From assembly GCA_040756475.1 (NCBI GenBank), contig JBFLZB010000015.1:1-43961 (forward strand): a stretch of 43,961 nt of DNA, given 5' to 3'. The position numbers were made by a program, and so were the translations under genes. Below are positions 26,308 through 40,056 of this stretch, piece by piece. The first letter of the stretch is position 1; every line of letters starts with the position of its first letter. The notes under the pieces were generated by a model, which saw only the letters and a list, made by a program, of their open reading frames with translations, had not been told where the DNA came from and made no database searches. The DNA is from Thermodesulfobacteriota bacterium (GTDB lineage: Bacteria; Desulfobacterota; Deferrisomatia; Deferrisomatales; JACRMM01).

Positions 26308-27432
26308 CTAGAGTCGGCTCCGGGCGCGGCGAAACACGTGCAGGTCGTACAGGGTGGCTTCGAGCTCCCCGCGCCGATAGGCTTGGCCCACCCGCCCCCC
26401 CAGGAGCCCCCGGGCCGTCATGGCCCGCACCCAGGCCTGGGCGCCCTGGTCCCAGGCGGCGTCCAGCTCCGTGGTGAAGTGGATCGTGGACAGCGAGCGC
26501 TGCTCCACGGCGGCCGATCCGTCGAGCCACTGCGCCACCACGGGGGCTGCTTCCTCGGGCTCTTCGGCCAGGTACCGGGTAGCGCGCAGCAGCAGTGCCA
26601 AGAGATGCTCCACCGCGGGCCCCTGGGCCTGGAGCACCCCGGAGCGCGCCGCAACGGCACAGCAGGGATAGGGCCCCGCCTGCTCGAAGGGTGTTCCCTC
26701 GAGGAAGGTCACGAGCCTGCCTTTGCCCTGCTCCTCGGCCATGGCCACGTAGGGCTGCATGGCCACGAAGCCGTCCACCAGACCGTTTTCCAGCGCCGGA
26801 ATGAGATTGCCGGGCCCGTGGAGGTTGAGCAGGACGACCTGGGCATCGGTGTCATCGAGCTGGTCCGCGTACCGAAGGCCTTCCGCCTGAAGCCCCTCCC
26901 CGAACACGAGGCCCTGCACCGACACCGCCGCCGTGTAGCCGATCCGCACCGGCGAGCCGCGGCCGCGAGCCAGCGCGACGAACTCCCCCCAGCTCTCCAC
27001 GGCGAGCCCCGGGTGCACCACCAGGGCCGCCCCACCGGCCATCACCGGCGCGATGATCCGCAGGGGGGCGCCGCGGTCGATGGCCTCCACCAGAGCGGGG
27101 AAACCGCCGAAGGCCACGTCGAACTGGTCCTCCGCCAGGCGCCGGACGAGCTCCTGACCTCCGGTGCTCGAACCGACCCGAACGCGCGCCACCGCGCGCC
27201 CCTGGGCCACCAGCTCGTACTCGGCGCGGTCGACCACCTCCCGCAGGTACACGCCGCCGTGCTCGCGAAAGTAGGCGGCATTGCGGGCGGCCACATACAG
27301 GGGGGCGTGGTGGTCGTGAAGGGCGTGGCCCAGCCGGATTACCGGCAGATCGCCTCCCCCCTGCCGGCATGCGGCTGCGCCCAACAGCGCGCACAGGAGC
27401 ACGGCCCCACCCGGCCAACGGACCATCCCCAT
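26308..27432 (-). CDS. NMT1/SsuA-like solute-binding lipoprotein
   Basis: This 374-residue protein has a lipoprotein signal (LLCALLGAAAC) and a periplasmic binding domain of the nitrate/taurine/thiamine-precursor class: GHALHDHHAPLYVAAR, FDVAFGGFPALVEAI, GYTAAVSVQG and GLVDGFVAMQPYV. No transporter genes accompany it. It sits three bases upstream of a hybrid histidine kinase gene, so it more likely presents a ligand to that sensor than feeds a transporter. ATG 27432 follows GGAGGAG. The ligand cannot be told from sequence. Confidence 0.85.
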   Translation of the reverse strand: MGMVRWPGGAVLLCALLGAAACRQGGGDLPVIRLGHALHDHHAPLYVAARNAAYFREHGGVYLREVVDRAEYELVAQGRAVARVRVGSSTGGQELVRRLAEDQFDVAFGGFPALVEAIDRGAPLRIIAPVMAGGAALVVHPGLAVESWGEFVALARGRGSPVRIGYTAAVSVQGLVFGEGLQAEGLRYADQLDDTDAQVVLLNLHGPGNLIPALENGLVDGFVAMQPYVAMAEEQGKGRLVTFLEGTPFEQAGPYPCCAVAARSGVLQAQGPAVEHLLALLLRATRYLAEEPEEAAPVVAQWLDGSAAVEQRSLSTIHFTTELDAAWDQGAQAWVRAMTARGLLGGRVGQAYRRGELEATLYDLHVFRRARSRL

Positions 27433-27611
27433 CGGTCTCCTCCGTCCGACCCCTCACCCAAGCCCGGGAGGCTCGCGCCCGCAGCTTGAGCCCTGTTTCA
27501 CAGACATGGGGTAAGAATCGGCCAAAGAACGATTCATCTCAAGGGGGAAATGGGGGGTTCCCCTGCCCCCGCACAATTGCTCCTTGCCTTTTCCCGGGAA
27601 CCTGTAGTTTC
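27433..27611. other. Divergent intergenic region, lower GC
   Basis: This region separates the solute-binding gene (minus) from the acyltransferase gene (plus). It marks the left edge of a stretch of visibly lower GC. An imperfect palindrome, GGGGAA-N8-TTCCCC, lies at 27544-27563. I see no clear -35/-10 or -24/-12 pair. Confidence 0.4.
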
Positions 27612-28442
27612 ATGCCATGGGCCAAAAAAAACACAGACCCGGGATGCGGAGGGGACCCGGCGGTTGCAGTGGGAGCGAAGGGGTTGAGCGATCTCCTGAA
27701 CGCCTTCAACGACCACTTCGAGCTCGTCTTCGCCAACACGCCCGAACTGCTGGACGAGGTGTTTCGACTTCGGTACCGAACCATTTGCGAGGACATGCAG
27801 GTGCCGGGGTACGAACCCTGGCGCTATCCCGATGGGAGGGAGGTCGATACATACGACGCACGTTCCGCCCACTGCCTCATTCGTCACCGGAGCACGGGAC
27901 AGGCGGCAGGGTGTGTCCGCCTGATCCTGGCACCCATCGATGATCCGTCTCAACCGTTCCCCATCGAATCGGTTTCGGGAGGACGCTTCGACCCCGCCAA
28001 AGTGAATCCCGCCCTGCTCCCACGCGGCGACACGGCAGAGATTTCCCGCCTGATCGTACCAAGGCTCCTCAAGAACGCCGACGGGAAGGTATCTCCCCAC
28101 CGGAGTCCAGCTTTCCCGTTCCCTGTGCTGGGACTGCTCGCTGCGGTAATGCGTCTGTCCTCCGCTCACGGCGTGACCCACCTCTATGCCATCATGGAAC
28201 CCTTGCTCAACCGCTTACTTCGGCGGTTCTCTCTGCACTTCGAACCCATCGCCCCACCCATCGAGTATCATGGAGTCCGACAGGCTCACCTCGGGGTGGT
28301 GGCAGACGTGATGAGCCGCGCCTACCGGGAGCGGCGCGAGGTTTGGAACCTTCTGACGGACGCCGGCCGCTGCGCCCCGGAAGGAAACCACTGGTCGACG
28401 CCCGACGAACCCCGAGTCGCGGTCGCGGCCGGACAAAGGTAG
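27612..28442 (+). CDS. PEP-CTERM/exosortase-associated acyltransferase-like protein
   Basis: This protein of about 276 residues has the GNAT-like fold of the acyltransferase family found with PEP-CTERM/exosortase systems, related to autoinducer synthases: FELVFANTPELLDEVFRLRY, REVDTYDARSAHCLIRH, GCVRLIL and AEISRLIV. The C-terminal part has THLYAIMEPLLNRLLRR. No exosortase, PEP-CTERM protein or polysaccharide genes are in the window, so it is an orphan here. ATG 27612 is the likeliest start but lacks a good ribosome site; a TTG about 70 bases downstream before SDLLNAFN is possible. GC content is visibly lower than in the left half of the window. The substrate is unknown. Confidence 0.75.
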   Translation: MPWAKKNTDPGCGGDPAVAVGAKGLSDLLNAFNDHFELVFANTPELLDEVFRLRYRTICEDMQVPGYEPWRYPDGREVDTYDARSAHCLIRHRSTGQAAGCVRLILAPIDDPSQPFPIESVSGGRFDPAKVNPALLPRGDTAEISRLIVPRLLKNADGKVSPHRSPAFPFPVLGLLAAVMRLSSAHGVTHLYAIMEPLLNRLLRRFSLHFEPIAPPIEYHGVRQAHLGVVADVMSRAYRERREVWNLLTDAGRCAPEGNHWSTPDEPRVAVAAGQR

Positions 28443-28908
28443 CGGGGTGCGCCAAGATCCGTTCGGACGTAACCGGCCGGCCGCTCTCTATCCGAAGGAC
28501 AACGAGAAGCGAGTGTAGGAGCCTGCTCCCGCAGGCGACTTGCCGCGCTAACGGCAGGGGGAACGGTCGGCCTTCGGCCGAAATCGCCAGCAGGAGCTGG
28601 CTCCTACAGAGGAACCGGAACGGATCCGCGCTCGACCGGTTACGCCCAATCCGTTCCCGCACCGGAACGGGCCGGCATATCCGGACACCCGCCCTATCCC
28701 CTCCCCCCTCCCATGACCTCCCACATCCCTTGCGCGGCCGTGCCCCCGAGCCACAATGGCTCTAAAGTCATGGGGCGTTGCGGGCGAAGAGTAGGGTTGC
28801 CCCCCAACTCCATGGACTGCTGAGGCTTCCTGGCAGGCTTGCCCGACCCCACGCGAGCCGTAGCACCGGATTCCCGGCAGCGTCGCTTCCCGTCGGCGAG
28901 AACATGGC
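28443..28908. other. Intergenic region with a REP-like doublet
   Basis: About 465 bases without a supported gene. The main feature is the inverted repeat at 28514-28608. The remainder has mixed composition and some out-of-frame ORFs without ribosome sites. Confidence 0.5.
28514..28608. repeat. REP/REPIN-like inverted repeat
   Basis: TGTAGGAGCctGCTCCcGCAG starts at 28514, and its imperfect complement ends with GCAGGAGCtGGCTCCTACA at 28608. Between the arms is a small perfect hairpin (TCGGCCttcGGCCGA). This is the layout of two REP sequences in opposite orientation, mobilised elsewhere by REP-associated tyrosine transposases. The TGTAGGAGC-type end is common to many proteobacterial REP families. 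Confidence 0.65.
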
Positions 28909-29436
28909 ATGAAGGCAGTCTGCGGTACCGTGCCGAAAGCTGGTTGGACCCGCATCGTCCCGGAAGCAATCCTCCAGCTTCGGAGGCCGGACGCCGCGCG
29001 CCGCTCCCCTCGGTGGAACCGAAGTACCTTGCTGGCAATGGCGGTAGCGGGAATCCTCTGCCTAGCGTCCGCCAGTTTCGCGCAAGAGGTTGTAGTCCAT
29101 CCCACGGTGGCGGAAACCACGATTTCGCGCAACGTATTGCGGGCGATTTTCGGGATGCGACTGAGAACTTGGGGGGACGGCACGCCAATTGTGGTCTTTG
29201 TATTGGATGACCGGTCAAAGGTTCATGACTCGTTCAGCAAGATGAAACTCAACATATTTCCCCATCAACTTCGGCAGGCCTGGGATCGACTCGTCTATTC
29301 AGGAACAGGGCAGGCGCCAATTTCTCTGCAATCCGAGCTGGAAATGAGAGCCAGGGTTGCAGCAACTCCGGGAGGGATCGGCTACCTCTCGAATGAGTGG
29401 ATCGATGAAACGGTACGCGTACTCGATGTCCAATAG
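28909..29436 (+). CDS. PstS-like periplasmic substrate-binding domain protein
   Basis: This protein of about 175 residues has a hydrophobic signal (LLAMAVAGILCLASASFAQ) followed by a compact binding-protein-like domain: VVHPTVAETTISRNVLRAIF, TWGDGTPIVVFVL, NIFPHQLRQAWDRLVYSGTG and GGIGYLSNEW. Similar short PstS-like proteins occur beside porins and cyclic-di-GMP genes. ATG 28909 gives an unusually long region before the signal; a start nearer 29038 (ATG) or 29029 (TTG) may be real, but none has a good ribosome site. It overlaps the porin gene by 11 bases. Codon use is less GC-rich than in most of the window. It may bind phosphate or another anion; it lacks transporter partners. Confidence 0.7.
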   Translation: MKAVCGTVPKAGWTRIVPEAILQLRRPDAARRSPRWNRSTLLAMAVAGILCLASASFAQEVVVHPTVAETTISRNVLRAIFGMRLRTWGDGTPIVVFVLDDRSKVHDSFSKMKLNIFPHQLRQAWDRLVYSGTGQAPISLQSELEMRARVAATPGGIGYLSNEWIDETVRVLDVQ

Positions 29437-30652
29437 GCGGCGAGGGAGAGTTTCTGCCTTCCTCTCACCCATGATTGGGTTGGCCCTGCTGTTCGGTCCA
29501 GCCACATCGCGTGCCATCGAATTGCAGGGAATCCCGGGCACCTTTCAAATTCACGGATTCCTGTCTCAGGCATACGTTCTTACGACGGGAAACGACTTCT
29601 TTGGTCAGAGCGAGACGCGCGACGGTGGAAGCTTCGATTTTCGCGAGATCGGTATAAACGCATCATGGAGGACGAGTCCGTGGTTTCAGGTTTCCGCCCA
29701 AGGGCTGTCCCGTTGGGCGGGAGACGGGGACAACGGCCAGCCGAGGCTGGACCACGGCTTCCTGGACCTGAGCCCTGTCACAACCAAGTCCGATCTGTGG
29801 GGCATTCGGGTGGGTCGGGTCCCCACTCCCTTCGGTCTCTACAACGAGACGAGGGATGTTCCCATCACTCGCCCCAGCATCCTGCTACCACAGTCGATCT
29901 ATTTCGACAGGGTCAGGGACGTCCTGCTATCGGCCGACAGTGCCCACGTCTACGGCGAACGCCGGACTGATTTCGGTGACTTCTTCGTCCAGGCAGGGGC
30001 AGGTTGGCTGCGCTTGCGTGGCGACGAGAACGAGATCGCGCTCCTTGGGATGGCAGCCCCAGGGCACCTGGAAAGCGACATCTCCTATTTGGGCAGGCTC
30101 ATGTACGAGAAGGAAGGAGGTCGGCTGCGTCTGGCCTTTTCACTGGCTGAAGCAAACGTCGACTATGAACGGGGCGCACAGGATTTAATTCCTGACGGAT
30201 CCATCCGATTTCGCCCATATATCCTATCGGCCCAGTACAACGCCGAGCGATTGAGCCTGACCGGCGAATACGCGCTTCGCCAGTTCCAAAGCAGTGGTTT
30301 CGGCCAAAGCACCACCCGGGTCACCGGCGAAAGCTACTACCTCCAGGCGGCGTACCGCTTCGCACAGGGCTGGGAGGCGATGGCGCGGTATGACGTGTTG
30401 TACAGCGACCGGTCGGACCGGGATGGGAAGGACTTCGAAGCCCAGACCCGGGGGACGGTGCCGGCCCACACCCGCTTTGCGAAGGACCTTACGGTGGGGC
30501 TGCGCTGGGACATCACGCCCCACTGGATGGCCCGGGTCGAGTACCACCTGGTGGACGGCACCGCGTGGCTGCCGCGGCTCGACAACCGGGACACGGCGGA
30601 CCTGGAGCGCTACTGGAATCTCTTCTCGGCCCTCGTGTCGTTCCACTTCTGA
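29426..30652 (+). CDS. Outer-membrane beta-barrel porin
   Basis: This 408-residue protein has an N-terminal signal (SAFLSPMIGLALLFGPATSR), alternating hydrophobic/polar strands rich in Tyr, Trp and Arg, and a C-terminal Phe (LVSFHF), all typical of an outer-membrane barrel. Visible strands include FQIHGFLSQAYVL, GINASWRTSPWFQVSAQGL and LTGEYALRQFQ. It overlaps the PstS-like gene and precedes a membrane EAL protein. ATG 29426 gives the shorter overlap; ATG 29405 (MKRYAYSM) is possible. The first two thirds have lower GC than the last third, with the change near 30300. Function is inferred to be anion or organic solute passage. Confidence 0.8.
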   Translation: MSNRRRGRVSAFLSPMIGLALLFGPATSRAIELQGIPGTFQIHGFLSQAYVLTTGNDFFGQSETRDGGSFDFREIGINASWRTSPWFQVSAQGLSRWAGDGDNGQPRLDHGFLDLSPVTTKSDLWGIRVGRVPTPFGLYNETRDVPITRPSILLPQSIYFDRVRDVLLSADSAHVYGERRTDFGDFFVQAGAGWLRLRGDENEIALLGMAAPGHLESDISYLGRLMYEKEGGRLRLAFSLAEANVDYERGAQDLIPDGSIRFRPYILSAQYNAERLSLTGEYALRQFQSSGFGQSTTRVTGESYYLQAAYRFAQGWEAMARYDVLYSDRSDRDGKDFEAQTRGTVPAHTRFAKDLTVGLRWDITPHWMARVEYHLVDGTAWLPRLDNRDTADLERYWNLFSALVSFHF

Positions 30653-35464: not shown

Positions 35465-38400
35465 TCACTTCCCCAGGGCGCTCAGAAAGCACCCTCCGCC
35501 CCCGCCCCCGCCACCGCCACCGCCGCCCCCGCCGGCCGGAGTGATCGTATAGGTCTGGGTGGTTACGGGGCTCGCGTTCCCCGCGGTGTCCACCGCAAGA
35601 TACTTGAGGACCGCGCTCTCCGCGATGACGATCGGTCCGACGTAGCGGGTCGACTGCGGAGTCGGCTCGGTGCCGTCGAGGGTGTAGTAGATCGAAGCCG
35701 CCTCGTTCACCGAGAGCGTCACGGTAACCTGGCCCGCGTACTGACCGCCGGGGTTCGCCACGGTCACCTGGGGAGGGGTCGCATCCGGTGGCGGAAGCGT
35801 TTGGATCACGTAGGCCTGGCTGGCCACGTCCCCCGCGTTGCCCGCCGCGTCCACGCCGAAGTAGCGCAGCGTGGCCGACTGGCTCACCGTCACCGTGACC
35901 GGCGAGGGCCCCGAGGGGGACGAGAGGCTCGGCGCAGTGCCGTCCAGAGTGTAGTAGATGGTGGCCGGCTCGTCGGCGGTCAGGACCACCGACTGGGGCG
36001 CGGTGTAGGTGCCCGCCGCCGGAGACGCCGTCACCACGGGGGGCGTGGTGTCGCCCGGTGCGGCTTGAATCTCGTAGGCCTGGCTGGCCACAAGCCCCGC
36101 GTTGCCCGCCGCGTCCACGCCGAAGTAGCGCAGCGTGGCCGACTGGCTCACCGTCACCGTCACCGGCGAAGCCCCGGAGGGGGAAGAGGTCGTGGGCACG
36201 CTCCCGTCCAGGGTGTAGTGGATCGTGGCCGGCTCGTTCGCCGTGAGCACCACCGCCTGGGGCCCGGTGTAGGCACCTCCGGCAGGAGACGCCGTCACGG
36301 AAGGCGGGGTGCCGTCGAGGACGATGGACGCGCTCACCACGGCCGACTCGTTGCCGGCCGCGTCGCGGAACTGGGCAGACACGGCCTTCACGCCGTCGCC
36401 CGCCGGAAGGGTCCACGGGAGGCCGGACGCGTAGGGAGACCAGGCCGCCGACGCCGGAGAGGCGCCGTTCGCCACCCGCATCTGCACCACCCCGCTGCCC
36501 CCGCTGCCGTCGGAGGCGAGGAGCCCGAGGGTGACGGCGGTAGCCGAGGTGAGTACCGCTCCCGCGTTGATCTGCACCGCCCCGGTAGGCGGCACCGTGT
36601 CCAGGAGGATGTCCTCGCTCGCCACCGCCGAAACATTGCCCGCCGCGTCCTGGAACTGAGCAAACACAGTCTTCGGCCCATCTCCCGGCGGGAGGACCCA
36701 GCTCCGCGTCGCCTGATAGACCTCCCAGACCCCCGTGGGCGTCGCCCCGTTGGCGACCCGGAGATGGGTCACGCCGCTTCCTGTTCCGTCGGCGGCGACA
36801 AGGCTCAGCGTGACGAGAACGCTCCCCGTGACGGCGGCCCCGGCCTCGATCGTGACGCTTCCCGTGGGGGGGACGGTGTCCACCCGCCACTCCGCCAGGG
36901 TTGCCGTCTCGAAGGGCTGCCACGCCCCCGCCCCGTTCCGGCCCACCACGGCGAGGCGGTGGACGCCGTCCGCAAGGCCCGACAGGGTCACCGCTTCCGA
37001 AACGGGCGCCTCGTCGGAGGAATAGGCGCTTCCGTCGAGCGACCACCGGTAGGCCTCGATCTCGTCTCCGCCGACCCACACGGTCGCGGTGCGGCTCGGT
37101 GTGAAGCTCGCGGGCACCCCGCTCAGCTCGGCCCGGGGAAACAGGTCCAGGTACCACAGGCCGCGCCCGTCCACCGCCGCCACCAGCCGGGGCGCTCCCG
37201 GCTGGAAACGCAGGGCGTAGATGAGGCTCATGCCGTTGCCCGGGACGGCAAGCCCCTGGTCCCGCTGTGCCCAGGAAGCCCCCCCGTCCAGGCTCAGGTA
37301 CACACTGCGGTTCACCACAGCAGCCATCCACGGATCCCCGGCCTGGTCGCCGATGGCCGCGGCGTCGACCGAGCCTAAACCGGGCAGTCCGCTTTCATCG
37401 CCACCTAGCGGCGTCCAGGAGCCTCCACCGTCCCAGGTCTCGAAGAGCCCAAACCACTGCTGGGCACCCGCCAGGAGGCGGCCCCCCACGGCCGAAGACG
37501 CCGCCAGCTGTCGCAGTTGCACCCCTTGGAAGGCGTTGAACGTGGTGTACCGGCCCAGCAGATCACCCGTGTTGACGACGCTGCCAACATCCCTGTGCGT
37601 GACCAGCATTCGGCCGGCCTCAGGTGCGGCGACATCCACGAGCTCAGCGAAGAGCCCGACAGCACTCCCTGGACTCACCGAAGTGCCAACGGGGGCACGA
37701 TAGCGCAATCTGCCGACTTGATCCGCGACGATATCGATGAACGTACCCGCAGACGAGTTCAACTCAAGCCTTGCCAACAGATCTCCCACGCCAAAAACAG
37801 ACCCAACAGAAACGAACCACTGGCGGACGGTGGCTGATTGAGAACCATGAAGTTGAATTTCAAACAATTCCTTGAACGATCCCAGCATCTCTCCCGCAAT
37901 CCCGAAACTGCCGGCAGGAAGATATATTTCCAAGAGGATACCGGGGTTCGGGGAAGGAACTGGAACGAGGCCGTCCACCGTCTGCATTTCCACGAGCGTC
38001 TCGCCCGCCAAGAAGATGTCACCGGGCGCCTTCCGCCACGCACCGACGGTCCCGCTTGCCGGAGCCGCCAGCGAGAGAGGAACCTCCAGCTCGATGCGAG
38101 CCAGAGCCTCGTCCGCCGAAAACCATTGGCCGGGAGGCTTCACCCACTGTGCAAAACGCGCCGTATCGACGGGCAACGCGTCGGGACAGGGGATCGGCAG
38201 CGGGGCAAGCCAGCCACCCCCCTGCGCCGGATCCACGGCGAAATTCCACGTCTGGCCTTGGTCGAAGCTCCGCAGCACCAGGCCATCATTCCCCTGTTTG
38301 CCCGCCACGACGACCCCCGGGGGGCTGCCGTCGTCCCGCGCCACGGCCCAGCCGATGGTCGGCGGGACCTCCGGGGCCGCCGTCCAGGTGGCTCCGGCAT

Positions 38401-39922
38401 CGGAGGTGGCGTAGACGCCGGCTTGGGTGCCGGCGATGGCCCGCTGCGGGTTCTCGGGCGAGAACTCCAGGCCCGTGATGCCCCGCTTGGCCTGGGTGCC
38501 CAGGCCGAAGTTGCGGTCTTCCCAGCTCAGTCCCCCGTCGCGGGTGCGGTAGAGGCCCCACCCGTCCACGCCGAGCCAGAGGTCCGCCCCTTGGTAGCGC
38601 ACCAGGAGCGTCGACGCGGCGGGGAACATACTGCCTGGGGGGTCCCCTGGCCTGGCCGCAAACCGCAGCCACTGGGCTGTCTGGGGCTCCCAGCGGTAGG
38701 CGCCGCCGTTACCCGAACCGAACGCCCCGCCCGCGACGGCAAGCCCCGCCGAGCCCGGAGCGAAGGCCACGTCGCGGGCCGTGTACGCCGCGAGCCCTCT
38801 GGAGGAGTGGGCGAAGCCGCCGGCGCGGCCCGTGCGCCGGAAGAGCCCGGCCTTGGCCTCCAGGAGCCACTCGGCGGCGGGCGAGACGAAGATCCCCTGA
38901 AGCTCCATGCCGAGCTCCGGCAGAGGCAGCGCGGTGCGCGTGCCCGCAAGGGGAAGCTCGTAGAGCGCAGTAGCGGCACCTGCCAGAGGGTCGTTCAGGC
39001 GGTAGAGCAGACGCGAGGGGTCCAGGGGATCCCAGCCCACCGCGTCCACCTCGTAGAACTCGGGGTTTCCGGTTCCAGCGAAGTGGCGCTCCGTCCAGGT
39101 GGAGCCTCCGTCCTGGCTCACCCACAGCCCCACTCCGCCCTGGGCTGCAGCGATTACCGAGCCGTCCCCTCCCGGCAGAGCGAAGTCGACGATCTCGGCG
39201 CTGGGGCTGCCGGGAAAAGCGGGGAGTGCCGCGGGATTGCCCACGAAGTTGTACCGAAAGATCCGTCCGCTCCGATTCGAAAAGTAGAGAAAGGCCCCAT
39301 CCCGCGTAAAACGCAGGCGCGACACGGCATAGGACGCGTCGGCCCCCCCAACCCGGGTCCAGGTGGCGCCGCCGTCGCGCGATTCGAGGAGGATGTCGGT
39401 GCTCGTGTTGAAGGTCGCCGCGAAGAGGTGCTGGGGATCGTCGGGGCTCACCGCTACCCGCCCAAACCTCTCCTGCGAGAGGGTGGCGCTCGCGGGTACC
39501 CGGCTCCAGGTTGCGCCGCCGTCGTTCGAGAGGTGGACACCCCGGGTGGCGGTGGAGGCGATCAGCCGCCCGGGAACTGCCGGGCTGGCGCAGATGTCGG
39601 TCACGTCGAGGGACTGGAGCCCTTCGTTGCGGCGCTCCCAGGTGAGCCCGCCGTCGGCGCTGGCGTACACGCCGCCCCCGGTGGCCGCGTAGAGTGTGCT
39701 CCACAGGGGGTCCGAAAGCTCGGCGGGATCTGCGGGGGAAACCAGTGCCCGCGCCCACCCGCCCCAGGGCCCCCCTACCCCCGGCGGGTAGGGCTCCCAG
39801 CGCTCGGTGGAAGCGAGGGTGGCGGAGCCTAGGGAGAGGGAGCCGAAAACAGCGCAGGACACGAGAACGAGCCACGTCCGGAACCAGCGTCTTCGGGTAC
39901 CCAACGAGGGCGCCACGGTCAT
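35465..39922 (-). CDS. Large surface Asp-box propeller protein with lipoyl-like and chitobiase-type repeats
   Basis: This 1485-residue protein has a signal peptide (TWLVLVSCAVFGSLSLGSAT). At least nine Asp boxes (SADGGLTW, SNDGGATW, SRDGGATW, SQDGGSTW, TRDGGLSW, TSDAGATW, SFDQGQTW, TWDGGGSW, SLDGGASW) form the propeller. Between the seventh and eighth, at residues about 590-792, are six hairpin units like halves of lipoyl domains (for example APASGTV then PGDIFLAGETLVEMQ). They are encoded by DNA of lower GC. Ig-like segments and three chitobiase C-terminal-type repeats (TIYYTLDGTAPS) follow; the last residues are 14 Gly and CFLSALGK. ATG 39922 follows GGAGACC. The protein is probably displayed outside the cell; its ligand is unknown. 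Confidence 0.8.
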   Translation of the reverse strand: MTVAPSLGTRRRWFRTWLVLVSCAVFGSLSLGSATLASTERWEPYPPGVGGPWGGWARALVSPADPAELSDPLWSTLYAATGGGVYASADGGLTWERRNEGLQSLDVTDICASPAVPGRLIASTATRGVHLSNDGGATWSRVPASATLSQERFGRVAVSPDDPQHLFAATFNTSTDILLESRDGGATWTRVGGADASYAVSRLRFTRDGAFLYFSNRSGRIFRYNFVGNPAALPAFPGSPSAEIVDFALPGGDGSVIAAAQGGVGLWVSQDGGSTWTERHFAGTGNPEFYEVDAVGWDPLDPSRLLYRLNDPLAGAATALYELPLAGTRTALPLPELGMELQGIFVSPAAEWLLEAKAGLFRRTGRAGGFAHSSRGLAAYTARDVAFAPGSAGLAVAGGAFGSGNGGAYRWEPQTAQWLRFAARPGDPPGSMFPAASTLLVRYQGADLWLGVDGWGLYRTRDGGLSWEDRNFGLGTQAKRGITGLEFSPENPQRAIAGTQAGVYATSDAGATWTAAPEVPPTIGWAVARDDGSPPGVVVAGKQGNDGLVLRSFDQGQTWNFAVDPAQGGGWLAPLPIPCPDALPVDTARFAQWVKPPGQWFSADEALARIELEVPLSLAAPASGTVGAWRKAPGDIFLAGETLVEMQTVDGLVPVPSPNPGILLEIYLPAGSFGIAGEMLGSFKELFEIQLHGSQSATVRQWFVSVGSVFGVGDLLARLELNSSAGTFIDIVADQVGRLRYRAPVGTSVSPGSAVGLFAELVDVAAPEAGRMLVTHRDVGSVVNTGDLLGRYTTFNAFQGVQLRQLAASSAVGGRLLAGAQQWFGLFETWDGGGSWTPLGGDESGLPGLGSVDAAAIGDQAGDPWMAAVVNRSVYLSLDGGASWAQRDQGLAVPGNGMSLIYALRFQPGAPRLVAAVDGRGLWYLDLFPRAELSGVPASFTPSRTATVWVGGDEIEAYRWSLDGSAYSSDEAPVSEAVTLSGLADGVHRLAVVGRNGAGAWQPFETATLAEWRVDTVPPTGSVTIEAGAAVTGSVLVTLSLVAADGTGSGVTHLRVANGATPTGVWEVYQATRSWVLPPGDGPKTVFAQFQDAAGNVSAVASEDILLDTVPPTGAVQINAGAVLTSATAVTLGLLASDGSGGSGVVQMRVANGASPASAAWSPYASGLPWTLPAGDGVKAVSAQFRDAAGNESAVVSASIVLDGTPPSVTASPAGGAYTGPQAVVLTANEPATIHYTLDGSVPTTSSPSGASPVTVTVSQSATLRYFGVDAAGNAGLVASQAYEIQAAPGDTTPPVVTASPAAGTYTAPQSVVLTADEPATIYYTLDGTAPSLSSPSGPSPVTVTVSQSATLRYFGVDAAGNAGDVASQAYVIQTLPPPDATPPQVTVANPGGQYAGQVTVTLSVNEAASIYYTLDGTEPTPQSTRYVGPIVIAESAVLKYLAVDTAGNASPVTTQTYTITPAGGGGGGGGGGGGGGCFLSALGK
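35492..35533 (-). repeat. Polyglycine-encoding GC microsatellite
   Basis: Fourteen consecutive Gly codons built from GGC, GGT, GGG and GGA precede the terminal CFLSALGK. This low-complexity tract can change length by slippage. It links the folded repeats to a Cys-containing tail. Confidence 0.8.
35811..36264 (-). repeat. Tandem 264-bp direct repeat inside the large propeller gene
   Basis: The sequence from 35811 recurs, nearly unchanged, from 36075, an offset of 264 bases or 88 codons. Each copy encodes one chitobiase-type module (VSQSATLRYFGVDAAGNAG). The near identity implies recent duplication or gene conversion and allows copy-number change by recombination. A third, more diverged module lies at about 35540-35760. 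Confidence 0.7.
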
Positions 39923-40056
39923 GAGGCGGTCTCCGGTATCGCTCGGCCCCCGAAGAACTCTTCCAGGAAGGGCGCCCATGATACGGCGGTGCCCCCTCTC
40001 GGTTCAACACAGAAGGGCCTTCTGGATTGGGTCGCCGACAAGGGTCGCCAAGGGAA

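Follow-up and report, generated by a model that had tools for sequence, protein, structure and literature searches.

Lipoyl domains are the swinging arms of cytoplasmic enzyme complexes, and cofactor-free ones occur in periplasmic adaptors. In membrane-fusion proteins of the HlyD/AcrA type, an inserted hairpin separates the two halves of the lipoyl domain. The integrin alpha-I domain is inserted between the blades of a propeller and gained a binding role (PMC12422189). Propeller proteins are found in the cytochrome clusters of electron-transferring bacteria and have been detected extracellularly (PMC8322314). At the locus analyzed here, a set of lipoyl-type half-units lies inside an Asp-box propeller protein encoded among multihaem cytochrome genes.

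The window, that is, the whole stretch of 43,961 nucleotides, is a contig from an uncultured genome, the metagenome-type assembly of which is fragmented into 369 contigs with 4% contamination. Its features are given in Table 1. The host protein carries the Pfam domains BNR, Sortilin-Vps10, CHB_HEX_C_1, and Fn3_assoc, with PF02012 (Asp-box/BNR) matching in five stretches. The Asp-box propeller (residues ~58-935) is followed by Ig-like and CHB_HEX_C repeats and a poly-Gly-CFLSALG tail at the C-terminus. AlphaFold2 modeled the propeller on both sides of the insert with a pLDDT of mostly 75-90, and a Foldseek search with the host propeller model returned GH74 tandem (double) propellers, a likeness of overall fold at 13-16% identity. 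With both Asp-box repeats and a predicted propeller fold found, the host is classed as a GH74-like Asp-box propeller protein, which would be secreted and located at the surface. Its C-terminal tail is conserved (window 35468-35542, - strand): a Gly run, then CF[LI] with a few more residues, resembling a short CFI-type C-terminal signal, also ends nine of the ten orthologue ORFs.

Both cytochrome genes lie upstream of the host gene on its strand, and the second propeller gene lies downstream. The arrangement is conserved: relatives have a giant cytochrome, a 4-haem cytochrome, propeller A, propeller B, and a cytochrome in this order, along with further giant cytochromes. The electron-transfer clusters of Desulfovibrio ferrophilus IS5 likewise hold propeller genes among multihaem cytochrome genes, but the accessible part of that report makes no mention of a lipoyl-like insert in those propellers (PMC8322314).

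Table 1 Features of the host gene, its insert, and the neighboring genes (window coordinates; residues are those of the host protein).
Feature	Position	Strand	Remarks
Second Asp-box propeller protein, 615 aa	33615..35462	-	Pfam BNR, PSII_BNR; conserved next gene in relatives
Host gene	35465..39979	-	One open frame, 4.5 kb, 1504 aa; N-terminal signal-like hydrophobic stretch
Propeller part after insert, residues 817-935	37175..37531	-	Orthologue match resumes at query 813-825 directly after query 579-585
Insert, residues ~580-816	37532..38242	-	Six lipoyl-type half-units; absent from ten orthologues; lipoyl HMM; low GC
H6, residues 780-813	37541..37642	-	Lipoyl HMM second half
H4+H5, residues 711-777	37649..37849	-	Weaker second lipoyl-like domain, lowest GC; hhalign 83.9%; HMM 13.3 bits joined
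H2+H3, residues 632-701	37877..38086	-	Best complete E2-type lipoyl domain; PF00364; hhalign 96.9%; 37% identity to E2 lipoyl domain L136
H1, residues 592-632	38084..38206	-	Lipoyl HMM first half; H1H2 aligned by C-terminal lipoyl-like family
Propeller part before insert, residues 58-579	38243..39808	-	33-47% identity to ten Deferrisomatales orthologues; ends in Asp box SFDQGQTW
4-haem cytochrome, 261 aa	40800..41585	-	Paired_CXXCH_1; ~266-aa 4-haem neighbor in relatives
Large multihaem cytochrome, 15 CxxCH, cut by contig end	41626..43959	-	Cytochrome_C7, MtrC/MtrF-like domain

All ten orthologues, from the same family and order, lack the insert and are continuous at the site (the named relatives are Deferrisomatales/Deltaproteobacteria MAGs). 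Their alignments mostly stop and resume at the limits given in Table 1, with little between; a small additional loop is present in the orthologues of G003, G005, G007, and G009. As none of the ten related propeller proteins carries a similar insertion, sequence comparison indicates that the insert is a derived one, in this lineage only. It runs in frame for 237 codons with no stop or frameshift and is placed directly after the Asp box, before the inner strand of the next blade, with strands taken from the AlphaFold2 model; the predicted insertion site is thus the inter-blade loop, which links a blade's outer strand to the inner strand of the blade that follows. The half-units H1-H6 span residues 592-813 (window 37541-38206). 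The original prediction, made from the letters alone, had placed six units at residues ~590-792, between Asp-box blades: the number stands, as does the position, with an Asp box just upstream and both propeller flanks conserved, while the end moves from 792 to ~813. No convincing target-site duplication or terminal repeat was seen at the insert junctions.

The sequence similarity of the insert to lipoyl domains was then assessed. A relaxed pattern, G..[VIFG]..[GD]..[LVI], has six matches in the insert (starting at residues 617, 653, 690, 726, 765, and 799 of the host protein), against a mean of 0.32 in shuffled sequences (0 of 20,000 shuffles reached six), and two in the remaining 1267 host residues. 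The stricter formula first proposed, G-x-x-V-x-x-G-x-x-L-x-x-x-E, does not occur. Since the relaxed pattern was chosen after the units had been seen, independent profile tests weigh more. PF00364 (Biotin_lipoyl) scored 27.0 bits in the whole host protein (cut-off 22.1) and 39.5 bits on the insert segment alone (E=4.9e-10). A phmmer search against the PDB matched the insert to 1ghj, an E2o lipoyl domain (5.4e-6), and NCBIfam E2 models aligned over host residues 629-704. A lipoyl HMM built from 41 domains gave 58.1 bits over four stretches of the insert, where the best of 2000 shuffles gave 8.9, although the outermost half-units scored weakly; hhalign matched H2H3 and H4H5 with the values in Table 1. 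The proposed likeness to lipoyl-type half-units is therefore borne out by PF00364, phmmer, the lipoyl HMM, and hhalign. An intein reading of the insert was dropped in view of the strong lipoyl signal; the expected terminal C/S start and HN-C/S/T end were absent by eye.

The lysine that carries the cofactor, already thought to be missing, is indeed absent at each aligned turn: the lipoyl-lysine site is D669 in H2H3, the turn N-S-S-A-G replaces D-K in H4H5 with Ser at the lysine-equivalent site, and the H1H2 turn has no K. The usual attachment of lipoate or biotin is hence impossible in the insert. Its sequence points to lipoyl-type half-units forming at least two complete E2-like lipoyl domains that lack the lysine.

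Of the described systems, the E2-type lipoyl domain (PF00364; 2-oxoglutarate/pyruvate dehydrogenase E2) is matched by H2H3 over nearly its whole length, at 30-40% identity and with equal spacing of the halves. However, the insert differs from it by D669 in place of the lipoyl-lysine, by its secreted host, and by the three domain-equivalents placed in tandem inside a propeller. The insert also resembles the adaptor barrel-sandwich domains of HlyD/AcrA (PF13533, HlyD_3; weak profile matches) in having lipoyl-like halves that are cofactor-free and outside the cytoplasm. Unlike them, it has no coiled-coil hairpin, with no sequence of helical-hairpin length between half-units; PF13533 and HlyD_3 remain below cut-off, and the neighboring genes examined encode cytochromes and a propeller protein, with no transporter genes. 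The integrin alpha-I domain is comparable in its setting, as in one lineage a domain of ~200 residues came to separate two blades of an extracellular propeller, but it is a vWFA fold of animals with a new binding function, where the binding role of our insert is putative (PMC12422189).

Most likely, an E2-type lipoyl domain was exapted to give the insert, which would act as a docking or spacer module with no catalytic role. We give a probability of about 0.5 to the fuller reading, in which lysine-less lipoyl-type half-units inserted in a propeller loop serve as a protein-binding or spacer module toward a partner in a cytochrome assembly. E2-type lipoyl half-units would have entered an inter-blade loop of the secreted Asp-box propeller in this lineage only. 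On the propeller rim, they would form a set of barrels, compact, rigid, and without cofactor, that binds or spaces a partner, and may thereby help the propeller attach to a component of the extracellular multihaem-cytochrome assembly encoded around the host gene. Both the binding role and the cytochrome partner are put forward as proposed rather than observed features.

How the half-units pair bears on the shape of such a module. In two AlphaFold2 models (one with propeller orthologues, one with an added E2 row), the insert had a pLDDT of about 25-50, low because it is without homologues; viral scans for lipoyl alignment rows yielded one E2 row for AlphaFold2. The strands of the weak model of the insert coincide with the expected E2 hairpins, but its quality is too low for this to carry weight, and the barrel-sandwich fold suggested for the insert is drawn from its sequence. 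A tentative refinement, compatible with the docking or spacer reading and possible though short of even odds, is that H2H3 and H4H5 are complete barrels and that H1 pairs with H6 as a third barrel closing the base of the insert, much like the split lipoyl domain of HlyD/AcrA proteins. It is consistent with the lipoyl HMM joining H2-H3 and H4-H5 but not H3-H4 or H5-H6, with H1 corresponding to the first half of a lipoyl domain and H6 to the second, and with the close termini that insertion in a loop requires. On the other hand, the profile of a cytochrome-associated family, described below, joins H1-H2, favoring three serial domains.

The insert has no second copy in its own genome, and no homologue with the whole six-unit array was found in the genomes, phages, and plasmids searched. 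Degenerate-peptide scans with the insert across the genome contigs and viral contigs gave no matches, nor did searches of a phage collection and of PHROGs. Plasmids gave short matches only, those named being ordinary E2/lpdA genes. Across the phylum (395 genomes) and a second one (247 genomes), matches were mainly to H2H3, and all inspected loci were ordinary lipoyl/biotinyl domains.

As predicted, the GC content of the insert is below that of both flanks (53-64%, with 53% in the core, vs 70-75%), and its GC3 is 0.67 vs 0.86. The core GC3, ~0.54, is lower than in any of the 1502 windows of 80 codons taken from ten other genes, where the minimum is 0.59. The dip is centered on H3-H5, and H1, H2, and H6 are almost at host level, which leaves transfer plausible but not proven; a foreign origin of the insert is plausible. 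Elsewhere in the window, two neighboring genes at 27.4-30.6 kb also have rather low GC3, and an acetyltransferase/autoinducer-synthase-like gene (27369-28442, + strand; GC3 0.70) lies beside a low-GC stretch at 28650-29850.

These data could also describe a neutral or passing event, in which a fragment of a foreign lipoyl gene landed in frame in a tolerant propeller loop and has been functionless so far. The evidence on the insert is limited to one metagenome-type assembly; its presence in one genome only, a GC content not yet adapted, the lack of conserved relatives, and the weakness of the outermost half-units all fit such an event. We nevertheless consider it rather unlikely, as the glycine/hydrophobic pattern is kept in all six units, the 237 codons are uninterrupted, the GC-rich ends suggest some residence time, and the loss of lysine at every lipoyl site needed divergence.

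A PF00364 search of the insert's own genome identified an Ig/invasin-like protein of 1063 aa that has a signal-like N-terminus and carries a lipoyl-like domain at its C-terminus; its gene directly follows a 37-haem cytochrome ORF. Of 12 Deferrisomatales genomes, 9 encode this domain, as do two genomes of another family. It occurs in Big_1/Invasin_D3 proteins (G000:C32:1909-5064, - strand, L090; relatives L122, L123, L124, L128, L129, and L130), and several such proteins immediately adjoin giant multihaem cytochromes. In G004 and G010, the gene is on the contig of the propeller gene, about 11-25 kb away, beside 46- and 52-haem cytochrome ORFs. The lysine site of the family varies (K, N, T, R, D, Q, V, M; K in 3 of 11), so cofactor carriage is not a trait of it. 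Two further contigs start within copies of the domain (G000:C135:3-275 and G000:C149:2-145), which share 80% and 96% identity with that of C32; the assembly is probably interrupted by such near-identical copies. The presence of these domains in such clusters means that lipoyl-like domains outside the cell are recurrent here. The original remark that no described protein joins these folds outside the cell agrees with the open-access papers searched, in which no description of a lipoyl-type insert in a secreted propeller was found. The insert appears to be a new combination of known folds, but it is not the sole extracellular lipoyl-like domain in this group.

The insert and the C-terminal domain are alike in being predicted as secreted, in having no conserved lysine, and in lying near multihaem cytochromes. 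They differ in that the latter is single, terminal, conserved in the order, GC-rich, and distantly similar. It could be supposed that the insert was shuffled from this domain, given the same genome, the same cluster type, the absence of a conserved lysine in either, and the match of the family profile to H1H2 at 92.5%. This origin is improbable: the family profile gives the insert 28.4 bits, below member level (over 110; 116-170 bits for full-length members), whereas the E2-type profile fits far better at 58.1 bits, and the DNA of the genome's own C-terminal domain has a GC3 of 0.93 vs 0.54 in the insert core. As its closer likeness is to cytoplasmic E2 lipoyl domains, the insert need not share the function of the cytochrome-associated family. 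Finally, an assembly chimera of two organisms, for which the 369 contigs, the 4% contamination, and the GC shift might speak, is hardly credible, since the frame is maintained at both junctions, with one half of a single conserved propeller on either side, and frame and homology would have had to be restored twice.

We therefore retain the docking or spacer module as the preferred reading. A broader and distinctly doubtful extension of it is that, in Deferrisomatales, giant multihaem-cytochrome assemblies generally use lipoyl-type barrels without cofactor as docking modules outside the cell, once terminal in Ig/invasin-like fibers and once, independently, inserted in a propeller. The recurrence of lipoyl-like domains in cytochrome clusters lifts the insert beyond a curiosity. 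If the preferred reading is true, extracellular electron-transfer machinery, the assembly of which is poorly understood, would have recruited the lipoyl fold for a structural or docking purpose, and the insert and the C-terminal domain would be concrete candidates for proteins that hold giant cytochromes at the surface.
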